A stretch of DNA of 64,000 bases from positions 1,279,922-1,343,921 of the forward strand of contig NW_001865041.1 of assembly GCF_000002865.3 (NCBI RefSeq), read 5' to 3'. Shown here one piece after another: positions 1 through 35,611 of the stretch. Numbering within the stretch: the first letter of the stretch is position 1; each line of letters begins with the position of its first letter. The stretch is from Monosiga brevicollis MX1 (Eukaryota; Opisthokonta; Choanoflagellata; Craspedida; Salpingoecidae). Position numbers and translations under genes: made by a program. The notes under the pieces were generated by a model. That model searched no databases and was not told the origin of the DNA. It saw only the letters and a program-made list of their open reading frames with translations.

Positions 1-46
1 TATGCTGTCATCAAATATCCATTCTTGCACCCCTGTGGCCTCACAG

Positions 47-1408
47 GCGTGCCACCAAGTTGATCAGCGGCAACACCCGTGCTTACTTCTTGCTTTCCAA
101 GCTGTACTACCGCATGGGCGAACGCGCTGATGCCTTGACCAACATCCGCGAGTGTGTCAAGCTGGATGAAGAGGACAAGGAGTGTTTTGGTTTTTACAAA
201 ATGCTAAAGAAGTTCAACAAGGCTATGGACAAGCTTGATGCGGCGTACGAACATAAGCGGTATGTGGGTTAGCGCACCGAGAACTGCCTGGCAAGAATAT
301 GACTTGCGACGCCCTGACTTCACACTCGATCCAAATCCTTGCTGGCAGGTATGCTGAAGTGTTGCAGCACTTACAAAAGGCGCGGGGCATCGACACCTCC
401 GAACCAGAATACACGCGGCGCTTCCTGAACCTCGAATGCGAGTGCTTTGATAATTTGCAAAAGCCGGACACAATCGCCGTACGTCAGCCACCCCCCCCCC
501 CCACACACACACACACACACACACACTTCTCACCCCTACCTTACCTGTGGATCCTCAGACACATTTTCATCTCTCATCCCGCATGAACCGCGTGTGCACT
601 GTCAATGCAGAAATGCAATGAGGCCATCGCTGCAGATCCTCAACATGCCATGAACCTGGTACACAAGGCCCATGCCTTTGAGCGTAACTCAGATTTTGAA
701 GGCAGTGTGGACCTCCACCAAAAGGCCAAGGAACTGGATGGCGAAAACCGTCAGGTATGTGGCGTGGCGCACGGTCTTAGCTCGATGCGCGATCCTCCAG
801 ATGGAATCGATCATCAGTTGAATGCCATGCTGTTTGATGACTCTGTGTCAATTCCGATGCATCTTAGATCCAAGAGGGCTTGGAACGCGCACAGCGTTTG
901 TTGAAAAACTCCAAGAAGCGTGACTACTACAAGATCTTGGGCGTTCCCCGCAACGCCAACAAGCGCGCCGTGACCAAGGCCTATCGTCAGCTTGCACAGG
1001 AGTGGCACCCTGATAAATTCGAAACGGAGGAAGAAAAGGCCATCGCTGAAAAGCGCTTCATGGACATTGCTGCCGCCAAAGAGGTGTTGACGGACCCCGA
1101 AAAGCGCCGCATGTTTGACAACGGTGCGTTGTTTCCTATCTTTTGCTCATTTGATGACACGGCAGTGGCCCACGAGCGCGGGCCTGCTCGAATTTGATGG
1201 CTATGGAGTGTGGTGGCCACGGTCCCTCGGTGCCACGACGGGGGTCGCCAGCTCATTAACCCTGTCGTGTTCTCGCCTGATATGTGTAGGTGAGGATCCT
1301 TTGGATGCGGAGGAGGAACGTGAGCGCGCTTCGCGCGGCCACAATCCGTTTGGCGGTGGCTTCAACCCTTTTGGTGGTGGCCAGCGCTTCAACTTTAAGT
1401 TTCAATAG
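47..1408 (+). CDS. DNAJC3: DNAJC3/p58IPK-like ER co-chaperone, 3' part
   Basis: TPR-rich Hsp40 co-chaperone; animal DNAJC3 acts with BiP in the ER lumen and restrains eIF2-alpha kinases. Five exons are visible (47-259, 349-478, 611-754, 868-1123, 1290-1408), all GT-AG and in frame, giving the last 286 residues. The first begins after an AG at 45-46, so the 5' end with the signal peptide and first TPRs lies outside the window. TPR-like helices occupy the first two thirds. A J domain follows, starting KRDYYKILGV, with its HPD motif in EWHPDKF. The C-terminal tail carries GEDPLDAE and two NPFGGG repeats ending FNFKFQ, which is diagnostic of DNAJC3 rather than DNAJC7. Intron 2 holds a C-run plus (CA)n. 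The gene converges on the chitinase. Confidence 0.9.
490..526. repeat. poly-C followed by (CA)n microsatellite
   Basis: A run of about 13 C followed by about 12 CA units, inside intron 2 of the DNAJC3-like gene (479-610). Confidence 0.95.
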
Positions 1409-2099: not shown

Positions 2100-4694
2100 C
2101 TAGATGTCGCTACTCTCACGACTGAGAAGGTCATCTTCACGCAAATAGAGTCCCTGGCGCATGTCAGAGCGGCGCGTGTGCACATCCCGATCGAAACGGG
2201 AGGAGCGTTGATAGTCCAGGGGCTGTGTATCTGGAGCATACTGCAGCTCAACATCGCCAGCATCAGCATTCAAGTCCACGCTCTGGTGATTGTCTCGTCG
2301 CAGGAGCATGCCACATACAAAGAGCAAGCTGAGAACCACCATGGACGTGATGACAAGCACAACAATCACACCACGATCTACTTTATCATCGGTTGTATCT
2401 TCCACAGGCGGAGCGGGCTCTGCCACGCGCAAGTTGGCACGCAGGGCTTGGGTCAGCGGAAGGTGGTCCTGGTAGTTGTCCATGTCCAGCGTCCACAGCA
2501 TAACACCAGCCAGATCCTCTTCCATGACGAGCTGAGCCTTGAAAGCAGCTGTGCGTGGCGAGTCGTAGCCGACCCACTGTAGGTCGCGATAGGCGTACAT
2601 GGTGCGGGTCGCGTTGTGGTAGACTGACCGCCAATCGTCGCTGATCTGGAGGTCTTGAATTTCAAAGTAGGCCAGCAGACCAGCCTCTTTGGTAAAGGCG
2701 CCCGGCGCGCTCGCCCCAGTGGCAGGCGCCCCGACGAGCGCATTCCCGGATCGTGCCAGGGTCCAGCCGCGCCCAAATGCAGCCACACCAACCACGAGCT
2801 TGTTGGCTGGTGCACCTTGATTGCGCCAGTAGGACACACCGTCGCGTACGCTGAGGCCATCCGAGGCGCGCAGGGCTGTATGGGCGCCTGTGACCGTCTC
2901 CCAGTCGCCATGTAGGTCGTAGGTCATGAGCAAGATATAATCCACATAGGAATGTACGCGTGGGATATCATAGCCTTGGCTGGCGATATACTGAAAGGCA
3001 TTGACAGCCACCGTAAACACCAGTGGGCTCTTGCCCGTCTTGCTGGCATCCTCGGTAATGGCCTGACGTAGCTCTCGCAATAAAGTGACATAATTGGCGC
3101 GGTCCACTGTTCGCCCACCCGTGGGCTCGTAGCCGGGAAACTGCCAAGACGACCATGGGACAAACGGCACGTGAGTGTCAAACAAGAACTGGCAGTGCGT
3201 CTGAGCATCAAGTGGTCAGCCAGTGGCGGACCAAATCTTACCTCCCAGTCCAGGTCAATGCCACCAAAGCCATGGGCGCGCACCCAACTGATGAGATTGC
3301 CAACGAAGCGAGCTCGCAGCGCGCCATCCGCGGCAATGGTTGAGAGCAAGCCTGGCCTCAGGTTGGCACCACCCACACTGAGCAGGGTCGTGATATCAGG
3401 ATTCACGCGGCGCACCTATGGACGAGGCAGCGGCACCCTGATGATGAGGCGACTCGATGGTCCAACAATCATGGCGCGAAACGACGTGCAGCTGGCAAAA
3501 CACAAAACAACATCCCCTTTGTTTCTTCATGCTGCACACGCGTTACGATTCATCGTGATGAGGCGTGTCGACTGACCTGCTTATGAAAAAGGCGGTAGTT
3601 GCCCAGCTCAGGCTGGTCCATGTTCACGTCGGCGGGGTCGCCTGCACCCACGGCTCCATTGGCAGCCACTTGGGCAAAGGCGTAAATAAGGTGCGTAAAC
3701 TGACTGGCGTCAATGTCCTCCATGGCAAAATCCCAGGGTTCAGGCCGATATTGAGCCCAGTTGGTGACGTATCCAAAGACCACCTTGCAACCAGCACGGT
3801 GTTCGCGGGAGCAGTGGGTGGCATTGTCAGCCTCGGGGATCAGCTCGACGTTGCGCACCACCTGTAGGTCGCTGCAAGCCCAATATTCGTCGGGGTAGGC
3901 GACACCGCTGGTGCACGGCGGCAGTGAGGCATTGATGCCCAATGCATCGAGGTTCATAGTAGCGTAGCCTGGGGGTAGGCAACGGTCGGCTCGGACGAAG
4001 TACCACTGCAAGACACAGTGCCGGCACTCCAGATCGGATGGAATGTTGAGCAGAACACTGTGTTCTCGCGCATCGCCACCTGCAACGAAAAACCTACGTT
4101 CAGGAAAAAGAGACGGCACCGAATGATGTACGAGAGCAAAGGCAGGGGCAAAACACAAGCAGGTGAGCTATTGCGGACACACGGCTCAGGGTCCACATGT
4201 GATTGATGCCAGCCAGTCAAGACAGACCTTTCACTGTAGCTGAGGTCTAGTCGCATGTCCTCGTGGACTTGCAAGAGGTGTGTGTTGAGACAACTTTGCG
4301 AGAGGGCGACCGCGTCTAGAGCGGCGTATCCAAGCGTGGTGAGAACAATGTGCGCCAGTCGCTTTGGGTTGTGCGCATAAGCGCAGCGTAGAGACATCGC
4401 GGTGACTGACCTGCACAGATGCGAAACTCAAAGTGTCCGGGGTGACCGTTGCTGCTGGCGGTCAAAGTCACGGTGGTTCCGGCCAGTACAGCCATCCGCG
4501 CTGTGTCCTGCTTGAGGACATCTGATGTATTGACGCCACACAAAGCATGACGTTTCGTCGTGCTTTCAGTTTCTGTGGCGGGCCAGCCCCCCCCCACAGT
4601 TTGTGCCTGGACGACAGCCCGGCCCCCACTGTCAAAGCGTCCATTCCAACTGCTCGCCACGAACGGCAGATTGAGAGAGACAGAAAGAAGAAAG

Positions 4695-4765
<71 letters not shown>

Positions 4766-5013
4766 GCGTTGAAGGCCCAAAAGAAATAGATAAATCGTCA
4801 GAGCGACCTTGATACGAACCTGGTATTGCCAGCGGGCTGCCGTGGGCTCGGTATGATGAGCTGCGGGCCGAGCATGGTGCCTGGGGTTGTGCGAATGGCT
4901 TGTGAGGTCGTTTGGGCTAGGGCTGGGGTGAGCCAACCCTGAAACAGGAGATGTGATAATAACAGCAAGGGGAGCAGCCGGTGAGCCGGCGCCCCATTTC
5001 CTTCGTGCAGCAT
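2100..5013 (-). CDS. Membrane-anchored AA15 LPMO-like/GH18 chitinase fusion
   Basis: Six exons, complement(2100-3188, 3242-3415, 3577-4093, 4228-4315, 4411-4649, 4820-5013), total 2301 nt, give 766 aa with every phase matching. A signal peptide (LLPLLLLSHLLF...ALA) is followed at about 80-260 by a region like AA15 chitin/cellulose monooxygenases: TLTASSNGHPGHFEFRIC, then SQSCLNTHLL, then CRHCVLQWYF, then YWACSDLQ. His134 aligns with the second copper ligand. GH18 runs about 277-655: VFGYVTNW, TTLLSVGG, GGIDLDWE (catalytic Glu404), MTYDLHG, QWVGYD, MLWTLDMD. A TM helix (about 677-700) and a 66-residue tail make it a type I membrane protein. Chitin would be the shared substrate. Oddities: no N-terminal His for the copper brace, and Gly at the first Asp of DxxDxDxE. 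The GH18 call is firm; the LPMO part is a family-level reading. Confidence 0.87.
4650..4819 (-). other. Chitinase intron 1 with (CT)n tract
   Basis: Intron between the signal-peptide exon and the LPMO-like exon. Read on the coding strand it contains a roughly 70-base CT/TTCT microsatellite (4696-4765) close to the acceptor CAG at 4650-4652, so the repeat probably forms the polypyrimidine tract. Confidence 0.6.
4696..4765. repeat. (GA)n microsatellite
   Basis: Nearly pure GA dinucleotides with one AAG interruption, in intron 1 of the chitinase gene. The translations it produces (RERERE, SLSLSL) are artefacts. Confidence 0.95.
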
Positions 5014-6016
5014 CTTGGTGACTTCTCGGTGTCACGCATCCAGTTTTGGGTTTGCCCAATCCTCTGGCCACGGCCACGGCGTTGGCGCACGGGCCGTGGG
5101 CAGTGGGCGAGCTGGTGAACGACTCAAGCAATCCGTTTGCCACAACACTGGGGTGTGTGTTGCACAGCCAAGAGTGTCAGCCAGCGCACTAGCACGGCAG
5201 CCTCCAACAGCTGCTTGTGTGGGCGATCGCAAAACATAAAAATCACCGTCAACTGCACACTTGACTGCCGCGACCCCTCATAAACGCGGCGTCACCCCCC
5301 GAAGCAAAGCCGCCACAATTCCCAGATACCTCAGCGCACCTCAGCACAACCAGGCATGCTGACTGCATGCCTGGATCAATCATCAGTCATGCTTGTAAGC
5401 ACGAAGCAACCATGATTTTGCGGACATAAAAATAGTCCGCCATGTCCTGTATCTGGGCAACGGCCAGGGAAAGGACTGCTCATGCCGTTCCAGGCCGGCC
5501 GCTGGGCTTGGCATGACCACAGCGGGGCAACGGAGTGTGGCGAGCATGCCGTCGCCCGGTACACCGGCATGCGGATACTTTGCACCGAACAAGGGCGTTT
5601 CTTCCACGCTTTCCCCTTGTTTGATTTCGAGCTGGTGGCTTGGCTTATCCATTTTGGCACTGCAGCATCTGTTGCGCTCTGCAATCCTAAGCAGGAGCGC
5701 TTGACGCGCATGTTGTCGCAGTGACCGCTTGATGCACCACCGGTGTAGTTCACCAACGGGTACCGTGGTTAGTCGTCGCCTCCATTTGCTGCGCACTGTT
5801 CTCAACTGCGTCGCTCTTCTTCCCCTGAACTTCCCCTGATCATCTTCCGTTGCTCCAATCGCTGGCAGCACCGCAGTGGCACTTGACGACTGCCTGGGCT
5901 AGAGCTCAGCAGAGCTTGATCGTCTGCTGCCCTCGCTTTTGAGTGGTCTTTCTATCTTCTTCTTTTTTTTTTTACAAACCTCTTTCTCTCCACGACGCTG
6001 CCTCGGACATTGCACG
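5014..6016. promoter_or_regulatory. Divergent intergenic region between chitinase and chitin synthase
   Basis: A 1003-bp spacer separates two start codons pointing away from each other (chitinase ATG at 5013 on -, chitin synthase ATG at 6017 on +), so it must hold both promoters and 5'UTRs. A pyrimidine-rich stretch with a T run (5945-5990) precedes the synthase ATG. ORFs inside it (5383-5871) show no recognisable domain and I reject them. I see no TATA box I could defend. Confidence 0.55.
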
Positions 6017-9000
6017 ATGGATCGTCGTTCCAGTGCCAGCGCGACGGCTGCCAACAGCGACGTGGCGGGAGCCAGCGCGCACACCGTCGCCACCCTCTCG
6101 GATTTGCCGCAGCCTGAGCGAGCTTCTCTCCGTTATAGCGAGGCACGCAAGCTGCTCCACAACAAGTCAGCCAACGGCGCCGATTGGGCCCGCTATCACA
6201 ATGGCTTGGAGGCGGAGGCGGAGGCGGATCAATCTACTCCCTCCATCGAACCAACGCCCAGTGCCACCAAATCAGACGTGGCAGCACCCCCCGCCTATGC
6301 AGAGCCGTCAGCCAAGCCACCAATCCGCCGTACAGGCCCACCACAAGATACGGGCTACATCACCAGTGTCGTGACGGGCATCAGCCTCTTCAGCATCCGT
6401 GACCGCCTCCTTCGCGACTCTGTGCGGCAAAGTACGCCAGACATGCAAAACCTGAAGAAAAGCATTGCTCTTTGGGCTGACCCTGAGGCCCCAGAAGTGG
6501 TGGGCCAGCCCAGCCTGCCTGGTCTTGGTGTATCCACGGATACGACTACAACCGAAGCTGAAACCAAGTCGCACGTAGCTTCCTTTGTGAGTCGCGCTAC
6601 AACCGAAACGCAGACGGACGCCATGCTGCGCCGGGACACCGGTACAGGCGAAGAGTCAGCCTTGCGCTTCTCAAACAGCACCGACACCGCTGCCGAGGAC
6701 GACTACGAATGGGACGTGGGGGCCGAGCCCCAGGGATATGAAGGCACCTCCGCTCGCCGAGCCCCAACCTATCCCGGTGTTGGCAGCCATGCCAAGCCCG
6801 CCCCCTCTTCCTCGACCGTTGGCCTTGGTACAGAGGCCAACGACACAACTTTCTACCGCCAGCATAGCTTTACAGCAAACCATCGGGCCCGGCCCGGGGC
6901 TCACGGGCTGGGGACGCACGGCGTGCCCTACGCAACTGGTAAGAATGCGCAGCCTCGCGAAAAAAAGTAATATTCTTTGGCTGGGCTTGGCTTGCTTTGT
7001 ATTGCTCGCTCTTGCCATGCTACACATGTCGTGTTCACATCACGGCTCACCTCGTTGCACCTGATTCGACCTGCTCGCTTCATGCACCAACAGCCAACTT
7101 TGAACAAGCCGACACCGAAGCCACATACATGCACATGCAACCGCGCAACTCCCTCGTTCGTCAGCGACGCCCACCCGTGCCTGCCCGACCATCGCTCATG
7201 AAGAACCAGCACCGCAGCCATGCCAACAAGCCAGCCGCTCAACAAGACACCTCGGGGATGGAGACTACCGAGGAACTACCAGAAGTTGAAGAGGGTGCTC
7301 TTGTGCTGGCCCCGTTTGATCGTCTTCATCATCCCATCACCACTGTTTACTCTCGCCACACCGACTTTTACCCAACCGCCGGCAAACGCTATTACGGTGA
7401 GCTTACACAAGCACCCGCTGCAGCAGCTTGACTTGAAGCGCCGAGGCGGCGGCTTGGGACGTGCTGGCCCCCTTTTGTTTTCCAACACCTACTCACCTCT
7501 TCGCTGGCTTTGTAGTACCTTGGACCACCCAGCAGCGTCGATTGTGCGCCGTGATCCCCACCTACAACGAGCCGGCCTCGGCTCTTCACCGAACTCTCAA
7601 CACGTGAGTGGAGCTTGTTCTTGTTCAAGCTCACGTGCAAGCGTCGTGCACTTGAGGGACGGATGATCCTTATTGTGGTTGTCGTCACCGCCAGTACTTT
7701 GTTGGCATCTTCATTTGCGTGCACGTTCTGCTGCCACCTGTCTCTTGCGGGGACAGTCTCATGATCTAATCCTGGCCTGTCGGCATGGGTTTTCAACTCG
7801 TACAGCTTGCATATTCAACTGCCCAAGTTACAAGAACGCGACTTGGATTTCCATGTGGTCATTGTCATGGACGGCTGGGGCTTTGCTTCTTCATCCATGA
7901 AGATGTATCTGCAGTCCATCTTCGACATGCCAGAAAACGTGTTGGATAACGGTCCCACATGGTGGGGTGACCTCGACAAGGAATGGCCGGGACGTGAGGT
8001 CGAGACATTTGTCGTGCAGCGGGCAGATACTCGCAACTGGCAGTCTGCCTCTGTGCAGTTTGCCCCCGAGGACGACCCGGCGGCACGTCTCAACCTGACG
8101 CTGATTGTGAAGCGCGATAACCGGCGCAAGCATAATACCCTCGAATGGTTTTTCCGCTCCTTTGCCATTGAGTACGGGGCCGAGTATGGCTTCACAACCG
8201 ATTGTGGCACACTTTTCGAGCAAGATACCATATTTCATCTGGCTCGGCATCTTGATTGCTTCCCGCGTTGCGGCGGCGTCACGGGTCGCCAGCGCGTCAT
8301 GACGGCCGAACAACAAGGTGACGGCCAGGAAGACGGCTTTGCTTGGTGGATGCGTGCAGTCCAAGGCTTCGAGTACGAGGCCACCTATGCCGCCTTTGTG
8401 GGCGCTTTTTCCGTCACGGGCTTTCTGCCTGTCCTTCCCGGTCCCTGTGGTCTCTTCAACATGAAGCACCTCAATGGGTCGGGCGTCGACTTTTTCTTTG
8501 ACAAGGTGAAGCAGGATCCAGACACGGCTGGCTTGCTGCTGGGCAATGGTCTGTTGGCTGAGGATCGGTTCCTCTCTTACGCCGCGGTAGTGAGCACCGG
8601 CAAGCCAACCATCACCGAGTTTGTTCCCGAGTCCATCTTTTACTTTGAGGCCGAAACAGATCTCAAGACCTTTGTCGCTCAGCGTCGCCGCTGGAACAAC
8701 GGTACTCTTGCTTGCTTTATTTGGCTTGCCAAGAACTTGGACTTGGTTCGCAACTCGCCCCACGGCCTCGTCTTTCGCCTCATGACCCAGTTTCTGATCC
8801 TGTGGCAAGTCATTTGGATTACTTTCAGTCTCTTCTCTCCAGCATTCTTCACCGTGTTGATCCGCCTGGCCACCCGTCACACCTTTCCCGCCAACGAGAC
8901 GGTGCGTGCCTCATTGCATTGCTTCTTGAGTGCACCCGTGTTCACTTGCCCATGCGCTTGTTCTTTCATGGCCTGGGCTCGACCTGCAATGACCAGTCTA

Positions 9001-9953
9001 CACCCACTTACTTTGTGTGTTGGCGCAGTTCCAAAGCTTTTGGGCTGACATGATTCCCCTGGTTTATTTGGTGCTGTACGTCGCTTTTATCATCAAGCAC
9101 ACCTCCAGTAAATTTGAGGGTTGGATGGTACGTGACTGTAGTTCTTTATACAGCTTGCAACGCGGGCACTATCCCCCAACTGGGTCATGCCATCTGTTCC
9201 GTTGGGCCACACTTTGCTCACCTGTTCTGCCCTGCGTCCATGGTGGTCCTGGTCTCTGTGTCTAACTGAATGTAGTTTCACATTTTTACGCTGATTCACA
9301 TGCTGACCGTCATGTTTATCGTGACCACCTTTGTGGATGCGGCCATCAGCAAGCGGGATCGCGTGGTCGAGCTGACGCTATATGTGTTTGCCGTCTACCA
9401 GGGCGCCCCAGTTCTGCTCTCCCTGATTGTGAGCCCACGCTCCGGCTGGCAGATGCTCAAGTACTTTATCCCCTTTATGCTCTTCTTGCCGACTCAAACC
9501 ATGACATTCTGGACCTACTCGCTGACGCGCACCTTTGATTTGACGTGGGGCAATCGGCCCACCACGCATCGAGCGCCTGCGGATGAGCGAGGCACGGTGG
9601 TGTCCAAGCTCAAGGAGCACTCGCTCTCAGTCATTGGCATTGTGGCTACGATTAATATTCTGATTTCCGTGTTTTTGATGCAGCTGGCGGTTGCTGGCGA
9701 GGTGGTCACCCTGATTTGGGTCTTGGTTGCGCTCATGGCCTTTGCTGGCGTGCAAATGTTCTTGTCCTCCTTCTTTGCCTTTGAGTACCATGTCGTGCGG
9801 CGATTTCGCCGCTTTTTTCGCGATCGCAAACTTCGCCGTCGCCGCGCCAAATATCTCAAGCAGATGAAACGTCAGCTTGTGGCAAGTGGATCACAGCCCA
9901 AGCTCGGACCGCGCGGCTCCCGCCAGACCTTGCTGGCTGATACGGAACTCTAG
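6017..9953 (+). CDS. Chitin synthase (GT2 family)
   Basis: Polymerises UDP-GlcNAc into chitin at the plasma membrane. Six exons (6017-6938, 7094-7396, 7516-7603, 7806-8901, 9029-9127, 9276-9953) total 3186 nt, 1061 aa, all phases matching. The first about 410 residues are a low-complexity, Ser/Thr/Pro-rich cytoplasmic region. The GT2 domain then shows VIPTYNEP, VVIVMDGW, TTDCGT, LPGPCG, acceptor-site EDRFL (about 690) and QRRRW (about 730); these last two are the chitin synthase signature. TWGNRP lies where fungal enzymes have SWGT. Hydrophobic segments follow (about 760-950), then a very basic tail. The start ATG precedes the long open exon. It is head-to-head with a chitinase. A related GT2 polymerase such as hyaluronan synthase is less likely given EDRFL. 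Confidence 0.87.
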
Positions 9954-20023: not shown

Positions 20024-21449
20024 TCACCACTTGAGCTCGGCCTGGATTTTTGAAAACACATAGCTTTTTCGGTCCACCGTCAATACGGCGTTGCGCAGTG
20101 CGCATTTGTATGCCCCCTTGGTCTTGGACACCTGGGTTGAAAGTGACAGCACGCAATGCTGCAAGGTGAGGGATGATACCTGGCTCACAGAGGGCACAGG
20201 GACAGCTACAAACGAAATCTGGCGACACTCAGGCAAGGAGAGTAGCAACGCGGCAGCTTTTTTTCTTCTCCACGCTTACCCTGTCGTAAAAACAAAGAAG
20301 GCTATTGGCTGTATGGAAACTGCCCTCCTCATCGTCGTCGTCGTCGTCGTCGTCGTCTTCATCCTCATTCTCAGCAGCTTCTTCACCCTCATCAGCATCC
20401 GATGGTCCATCCACCTGTGGGAGCACACCCGACGCTGTGCCATTGATGCGAGGTCGATGAGCCAAAGCTAGTGCGCCACCTGGCAGATGCTTGTTTGTTT
20501 GGGTGGAAGGGCAAGGAAGCGCTGAGCGAAAATTCCGGGCTCAAAGTAGTCGGTCGGTAAGTCTACGCGAGGCGGATGGGGAGTTGTCTTACATGCCACG
20601 CCACCGCTCTGCGAGTTGGCCGAAATGTGCAGCCAGACCAGAACACATGATGGTGAGCTTGCGCGCGTCATTGCGGTCGTGAAAGAAGTACACGAATAGA
20701 GATAGTGCACAGGCAGGACATTGCTGGTTCTCACCTGTGCAGTAGACTGAGAAGTAGCCTCTGATCCAGCTAAAATGGCAAGAATTGGATGCGAGGCAAG
20801 AAAAGAGCAAAGGTGTGACTTTCAGAGGGTCAAACAGTGCTCGCCTCGCAGGACAAGGCCATGTTATGGGCCCTTTCGAGCCGTACCTGGAACATAGGGG
20901 GCAAACACATCCTCCCGAATCAAGTTTTCCAGCCACACCTAGAAAGGGCCGAGCCGACACGGCCAGTTAGGCTGGGGTCGAAAGAACAAGGCCATCCACC
21001 GTCTGCGGGCCTTGTCATCGGGCCCTCTTTGGAGCTTGTTGAGAGGAAGCTGTCTCCACACAGAGCATACGGGGCATAGGAGGTCTCAAGGGCAGACAAA
21101 ATAGCGCCGAACGATATGGTGGTCGTGCGAAGGCCATCACTCCGCGCAATGACGGAGCAGGGTCAACATCTTCAACAACAGCATGGCTGACCTCTTTGAG
21201 GCGGTCAATGGACGTCATATCCATTCCGTCGTCCAAAAGGGGCTGGCGCATATTCTCAATGGTATCTTCAATCACATCATAGTAGACCTTGCGCTGCAAG
21301 GCGTCCGAGTCACAGAACCAGTGGGGCAAAGAGATGAGGGCAGGGGCTTCAGTGCCCAAGGCAACACACACATTCACAGGCAGCGATCGAGCAAATATAC
21401 ACACCGTGTTTTGGCATGCGGCCAGGTTGGTGTACTGATGGCTTGCCAT
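20024..21449 (-). CDS. GTF2A1: TFIIA large (alpha/beta) subunit
   Basis: General transcription factor subunit that stabilises TBP on DNA. Supported exons: complement(20024-20131, 20280-20467, 20887-20938, 21192-21293, 21405-21449); joined they are 495 nt, 164 aa, in frame. The N-terminal helical domain reads YYDVIEDTIENMRQPLLDDG then LKEVWLENL, matching TFIIA-alpha. A short linker has LPQVDG and an acidic run (poly-Asp from a GTC repeat on +). The C-terminal beta domain reads EEGSFHTANSLLCFYDR, VSKTKGAYKCALRNAVL, SYVFSKIQAELKW. Human GTF2A1 is over twice as long because of its linker. The 419-bp intron 20468-20886 is long for this window, so a missed linker exon is possible. The first exon (MASHQYTNL...) is the least certain. 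Confidence 0.88.
20332..20357. repeat. Coding (GTC)n trinucleotide repeat
   Basis: Trinucleotide repeat lying within the TFIIA large-subunit exon, encoding the acidic Asp run on the minus strand. Being a triplet repeat it does not disturb the frame. Confidence 0.9.
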
Positions 21450-21482
21450 GTCGACCGGTTCACACAATCAATGAAACTTGCC

Positions 21483-22075
21483 NNNNNNNNNNNNNNNNNN
21501 NNNNNNNNNNNNNNNNNNNNNNNNNNNNNNNNNNNNNNNNNNNNNNNNNNNNNNNNNNNNNNNNNNNNNNNNNNNNNNNNNNNNNNNNNNNNNNNNNNNN
21601 NNNNNNNNNNNNNNNNNNNNNNNNNNNNNNNNNNNNNNNNNNNNNNNNNNNNNNNNNNNNNNNNNNNNNNNNNNNNNNNNNNNNNNNNNNNNNNNNNNNN
21701 NNNNNNNNNNNNNNNNNNNNNNNNNNNNNNNNNNNNNNNNNNNNNNNNNNNNNNNNNNNNNNNNNNNNNNNNNNNNNNNNNNNNNNNNNNNNNNNNNNNN
21801 NNNNNNNNNNNNNNNNNNNNNNNNNNNNNNNNNNNNNNNNNNNNNNNNNNNNNNNNNNNNNNNNNNNNNNNNNNNNNNNNNNNNNNNNNNNNNNNNNNNN
21901 NNNNNNNNNNNNNNNNNNNNNNNNNNNNNNNNNNNNNNNNNNNNNNNNNNNNNNNNNNNNNNNNNNNNNNNNNNNNNNNNNNNNNNNNNNNNNNNNNNNN
22001 NNNNNNNNNNNNNNNNNNNNNNNNNNNNNNNNNNNNNNNNNNNNNNNNNNNNNNNNNNNNNNNNNNNNNNNNNNN
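21483..22075. other. Assembly gap (593 N)
   Basis: Run of N between the TFIIA-L 5' end and the TRMT6 start. The right edge (22076-22142) is GA/CAGAGA simple repeat, so the unsequenced part is probably a purine-rich repeat. Translations containing X come from this gap and carry no information. Confidence 0.99.
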
Positions 22076-22150
22076 AAGAGAGAAAGAGAGAGAGAGAGAC
22101 AGAGACAGAGACATGAATTGGTTGGGACAGAGAGACAGAGAGAGGGAGGG
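22076..22150. repeat. (GA)n / (CAGAGA)n repeat at gap edge
   Basis: Imperfect GA and CAGAGA repeats directly abutting the gap. Confidence 0.9.
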
Positions 22151-22261
22151 AACCACGGAAAAGTGTGACCGTTGAGTCACTATCCCATGGCGGCTTGATC
22201 AGAGGGTGCACACGAGTTGGTTGTGAGCTTTCATTTGCTTGGGCTGGTCGGATCCATATCC

Positions 22262-33258: not shown

Positions 33259-35611
<2,353 letters not shown>

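Follow-up and report, generated by a model that had tools for sequence, protein, structure and literature searches.

Fusions of an AA15 domain to a GH18 chitinase have been reported from Chlorophyta, Bacillariophyceae and tunicates (Sabbadin et al. 2018, PMC5823890). The sections of that paper drawn on here also name Ichthyosporea, while the string 'choano' has 0 occurrences in its main text. AA15 proteins with GH18 and others with GPI anchors are also described in PMC8615602. An LPMO needs His as its first mature residue plus a second His, and in TdAA15A of Thermobia domestica these are His1 and His91 (PMC5823890). The original prediction for the locus analysed here, which is contained in a 64,000-nucleotide stretch of the Monosiga brevicollis genome (the window), knew of no described eukaryotic AA15-GH18 membrane fusion; as regards the AA15-GH18 fusion as such this was outdated, as three groups are named by Sabbadin et al. 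2018.

Gene model and predicted domains of the fusion gene

The fusion gene was located on the minus strand between 5013 bp and 2100 bp, where six exons joined in frame via GT-AG introns would encode a protein of 750 amino acids. The predicted exon 1 (4820–5013) contained the start codon (5013–5011), the signal peptide and then QLIIPSPR (residues 51–58), and was in frame with exon 2; its donor at 4820 (CCAG/GTTCGT) fitted six of the eight consensus bases. Exon 2 (4411–4649) encoded LPMO-like sequence in which the stretch NGHPGHFEF contains H134, the second brace histidine by the TdAA15A alignment, and the LPMO_10 match began here at residue 72-73. The LPMO-like domain continued in exon 3 (4228–4315) with SQSCLNTHLLQV, which aligned to TQDCFDQHLLEL of TdAA15A. 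Exon 4 (3577–4093), part of a single open frame (3550–4167), encoded the end of this domain (ECRHCVLQWYF ... EYWACSD), a gap of 28 residues and the start of GH18. The GH18 sequence in exon 5 (3242–3415; codon score +0.143) ended at the catalytic DLDWE (residues 400–404). In the spliced model, exon 6 (2100–3140) encoded the remainder of GH18 (FPGYEP..., with MTYD at 476–479), the TM helix (662–680), a 66-aa tail and the TAG stop codon (2102–2100). The six in-frame exons and outer coordinates originally predicted were thus confirmed on the minus strand, start and stop codons and GT-AG introns included, and the length of 766 aa was corrected to 750 aa, the last exon starting at 3140.

Two other acceptors were considered for the last exon. 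Acceptor 3188, which fits the length of 766 aa and leaves a 53-nt intron, would insert 16 residues; it was rejected because these would sit right after the catalytic DLDWE. The extra residues of the modelled acceptor 3200 (770 aa) would likewise land behind DLDWE. Acceptor 3140 (101-nt intron) restored DLDWEFPG and gave the 750-aa protein. By a noisy codon measure, the bases between 3141 bp and 3200 bp scored −0.172 per codon in frame, compared with +0.158 for the remaining exon 6.

The codon model was trained on 13 of 14 long open frames, with the fusion gene left out, some of which overlapped on opposite strands. It was taken as weak support only, because of this overlap and because exons 1 and 2 (−0.008 and −0.055) did not outscore the best frames of introns 1 and 2 (0.088 and −0.039). 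For the whole of exon 1 the model frame was the best of three (−0.008 versus −0.335 and −0.18), and for its mature part it led narrowly (0.032 versus −0.034 for the next best). A run of nine Cs on the plus strand was noted inside exon 2 (4587–4595), where an assembly indel would shift the upstream frame. Intron 1 contained a GA simple repeat (4697–4764), which is CT on the coding strand.

Comparison of the predicted protein with Pfam revealed a full-length Glyco_hydro_18 match (E 1.8e-81; residues 279–625, profile positions 2–317 of 317). Residues 72–250 matched profile positions 35–183 of 183 of LPMO_10, with an E-value of 9.5e-8 for the full protein and 1e-8 for the N-terminal 264 residues. 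On the strength of their E-values (1.8e-81 and 1e-8), both predicted matches are far beyond chance. The LPMO_10 score was about 36.5-37.0 bits for the model against a cut-off of 23. A search of the PDB with the N-terminal part (E up to 10) matched two sequences, of which only TdAA15A (PDB 5msz) was significant (E 7.1e-8; model residues 123–217). Through LPMO_10 and TdAA15A, the domain thus matches the AA15 family at the sequence level. With an E-value of at most 1e-5, the GH18 part matched 141 PDB sequences; chitotriosidase, among the best 60 of these 141 that were listed, aligned over query residues 7–364 of 367 (E 5.7e-70). DLDWE (DxDxE) and MTYD (MxYD), the catalytic motifs of GH18 chitinases, were both kept.

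The N-terminus resembled a signal peptide when judged by eye, with cleavage probably near residue 33 (ALA/QTT). One TM helix (mean hydropathy 3.08) preceded the tail, and five N-glycosylation sequons were ahead of it. Given this signal peptide and the single helix called by hydropathy, a type I membrane protein is predicted. Eight cysteines were present up to residue 247.

The original prediction of a signal peptide, a complete GH18 domain, a TM helix and a cytoplasmic tail was borne out by these analyses, the signal peptide by eye. The HMM check that it had proposed for the LPMO match was run with Pfam LPMO_10 and gave a significant result (36.5 bits). The AA15-like region stood as a match to LPMO_10 and TdAA15A, but not as an intact AA15 active site, as the match began only at profile position 35.

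The copper brace and alternative 5′ exons

Alignment with TdAA15A placed H134 opposite His91, so that the second brace histidine was kept. No histidine was present in residues 22–98 of the best model, and the predicted cleavage (ALA/QTTSQ) left no N-terminal His. LPMO_10 left the first 34 profile positions unaligned in the model whereas TdAA15A, the positive control, aligned from position 1. The first 23 profile positions were reached in none of the six N-terminal versions tested. Y244 in EYWACSD, near the CSD motif, is a candidate for the axial tyrosine or phenylalanine; the TdAA15A stretch containing Tyr184 was absent from the alignment. Of the combined oxidative and hydrolytic attack suggested in the original prediction, the oxidative half is doubtful, since the best model lacks the first copper-brace histidine. 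The lack of His1 applies to this gene model; that the actual protein lacks it too is inferred and not established.

Alternative 5′ ends were enumerated with up to two 5′ exons, GT-AG introns only and an upstream limit of 6010. The first enumeration yielded 9,066 structures, in 115 of which a His followed a signal-like stretch; the four that passed simple splice filters all began HHTEPTAARW. The second yielded 20,095 structures and 332 His hits, 244 of which started HPSPSPND and 12 HGSPLAIPGS; the pattern H[GASTY]-(1-6)-P-x-x-R was found in 0 of these 332. In the third, which used looser signal criteria and two-exon structures, 54 of 19,970 structures had HG starts, every one of them HGSPLAIPGS.

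In all 54 HG starts the second donor fitted merely 3-4 of the eight consensus bases, compared with six for the model donor at 4820. One of these structures spliced the signal peptide starting at 5013 to give ...LLFQA^HGSPLAIPGSWNG. Its sites were poor: the donor was AGG/GTTGGC, the acceptor CCGAG (GAG) and the second donor TTC/GTATCA. Its LPMO_10 score was 36.7 bits with a match from profile position 51, and the HG stretch added nothing to it. The HG structures were not adopted because of this second donor and because they brought no Pfam gain. When another frame of exon 1 was joined to acceptor 4606, LPMO_10 scores of 39.6 and 40.9 bits were obtained for two lengths, against 37.0 for the model. 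This frame would start HPSPSP behind a signal-like stretch, with a match from profile position 24 (40.9 bits), and it lacks its own start codon. Judged from the sequence, alternative 5′ exons that would place a His at the mature N-terminus do exist, each needing weak splice sites or a separate or improvised start exon. The first exon may also be another than the one modelled, including a more distant one.

The possibility that has to be taken most seriously beside our own reading, although we incline against it, is a true bifunctional membrane enzyme in which the AA15 LPMO and GH18 are both active and the real first exon puts His1 directly after the signal peptide. It would accord with the second brace histidine, with Y244 as a candidate axial residue and with a signal peptide at 5013 that can be spliced directly to an HG start; the HPSPSP frame beats the model by 3.9 bits. 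Published AA15-GH18 fusions (PMC5823890) offer a precedent, as does a bacterial AA10-CBM5-GH18 protein whose domains show synergy (PMC10154629). Against it, every HG start relies on the poorly fitting second donor, the ...LLFQA^HG structure also uses a GAG acceptor and its Pfam match stops short of the HG stretch, the HPSPSP frame requires a separate start exon and no version tested reached the beginning of the LPMO_10 profile.

The neighbouring chitin synthase gene and the genomic context

A chitin synthase gene was found on the plus strand between 6017 bp and 9953 bp. Its six exons (6017–6938, 7094–7396, 7516–7603, 7806–8901, 9029–9127 and 9276–9953) encoded a protein of 1,061 aa, which matched the Pfam families Chitin_synth_1 (8.9e-9) and Chitin_synth_2 (3.4e-8) when spliced. 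The main exon matched the PDB chitin synthase 7wjm (E 4.3e-23), and the protein contained QRRRW (QxxRW motif) and EDR motifs as well as six hydrophobic segments. The chitinase and chitin synthase genes were arranged head to head, with their start codons at 5013 (−) and 6017 (+) facing apart and separated by an intergenic region of 1,003 bp (5014–6016).

A search of the genome (39.5 Mb, 57 contigs) with the main exon and the two Pfam chitin synthase families did not reveal a second chitin synthase. The only hit outside this locus, on contig C45, was rejected as it reads as a kinesin. The single gene found agrees with PMC3942024, in which Monosiga brevicollis is an exception to the rule that a species has several chitin synthases. 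A GH18 profile search of the genome returned eight matches in four places: three exons of the fusion gene, three matches on contig C35, one on C51 and one on C56. By eye, C35 reads as a chitinase, and at the DxDxE site C51 has VLELW and C56 NFDYE. If the genome holds ~9,000 genes, the figure for Monosiga, the odds that one of four GH18 genes would adjoin the chitin synthase gene by chance are roughly one in a thousand, an estimate made post hoc and not a formal test. The adjacency of the two genes could be due to chance.

Genome searches for other LPMO genes returned only exons of the fusion gene; these searches were weak because LPMO_10 detected even the fusion gene merely at E 0.178. A scan of viral contigs with TdAA15A revealed no relative, and a profile search gave no match to CBM_14. 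One match to the polysaccharide deacetylase family, a possible chitin deacetylase, was found on contig C42:63962-64189 (E 1.1e-5).

Elsewhere in the window, five of ten long open frames matched Pfam families, none of the five being chitin-related. A DnaJ-domain gene (~1-1408, plus strand; DnaJ E 1.4e-22) was open at the left edge of the window and convergent with the chitinase gene, and a tubulin gene (33262–34686, minus strand) was contained in one open frame. Between 20001 bp and 22000 bp the G+C content fell to 0.40, compared with ~0.55 in most of the window, and the long open frame at 21153–22172 in this part had no Pfam match.

The original prediction had suited the enzyme to a protist that either eats or remodels chitin. 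The head-to-head arrangement of the chitinase and chitin synthase genes speaks for remodelling rather than eating. A digestive enzyme at the surface or in a food vacuole, feeding on the chitin of prey or detritus, would be secretory and membrane-bound with its GH18 motifs kept, as is predicted here, and the tail contains EDDLL, which loosely resembles endosomal sorting signals, a weak indication. As the pairing with the chitin synthase gene favours endogenous chitin, we consider a digestive role improbable.

Proposed function and comparison with known systems

The LPMO_10 match ended at residue 250 and the GH18 match started at 279, both ends lying within the single open frame of exon 4. Because one open frame spans the domain boundary, the covalent link between the LPMO-like domain and GH18 is independent of the predicted splicing, and the predicted sequence supports a single membrane-anchored protein that carries both. 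It is very improbable that two distinct genes, or an artefact of gene prediction, have been mistaken for a fusion, since exon 4 carries both domain ends uninterrupted and its methionines are, by eye, without a signal peptide downstream.

Our tentative preference is for a surface chitinase whose target is chitin of the cell itself and whose LPMO-like domain serves as a chitin-binding and perhaps non-catalytic module. The signal peptide would direct the protein into the secretory pathway and the TM helix would anchor it in a membrane, plasma or endosomal, so that the 66-aa tail is inside and both the LPMO-like domain and GH18 are outside. GH18, whose family and catalytic residues were identified, would hydrolyse chitin, and the LPMO-like domain, most likely a chitin-binding module, would keep the hydrolase attached to the polymer. 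Chitin produced by the same cell is the most likely substrate, because the gene forms a divergent pair with the only chitin synthase gene found in the genome; given the observed adjacency, chitin synthesis and trimming may be co-regulated. According to PMC9550227, the PMO domain of Neurospora CWR-1 keeps its allorecognition role when brace histidines are mutated, and an LPMO fold can therefore work without catalysis. The retained second brace histidine, which would not be required in an inactive domain, speaks against a binding module.

A more specific form of the surface chitinase reading, in which the LPMO domain has lost its first copper-binding His to become a non-oxidative chitin-binding module and the membrane chitinase forms a minimal make-and-trim unit with the only chitin synthase found, is rather unlikely as a whole. 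If true, an LPMO fold without the first histidine on a chitinase would show the reuse of LPMO domains as binding modules. It is the pairing with chitin synthase that would matter, as it offers two linked genes that are testable together. Little is known of how unicellular relatives of animals, among the close ones of which this organism may be, use chitin.

Chitotriosidase and other PDB GH18 chitinases share with the fusion protein a GH18 domain that matches over its full length and has the DxDxE and MTYD motifs; they are not known to carry an LPMO domain. TdAA15A has the second brace histidine and C-x-x-C-V-L-Q-W in common with the fusion protein, the N-terminal part of which was unmatched and, in the best model, lacked His1. 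PMC5823890 reports ten conserved cysteines in T. domestica LPMOs, compared with eight here (to residue 247), and T. domestica sequences that are LPMO domain only, to which the fusion protein adds GH18. Bacterial Jd1381 / JdLPMO10A likewise has an LPMO module ahead of a GH18 chitinase in one chain but, according to PMC10154629, is an AA10 protein with CBM5 and an active LPMO.

No printed report of an AA15-GH18 fusion or of a chitinase/chitin synthase pair in a choanoflagellate was found in the open-access literature searched, and no chitinase/chitin synthase bidirectional-promoter pair was evident among the titles found there. Among the closest known likenesses are the published AA15-GH18 fusions, in which eukaryotes likewise couple an AA15-related domain with a GH18 chitinase. 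Here, the GH18 domain is followed by a TM helix, on which the sections cited are silent for theirs, the best model lacks His1 and the neighbouring gene encodes a chitin synthase. The fusion itself is a further case of this published kind, and its head-to-head pairing with a chitin synthase gene is new here.
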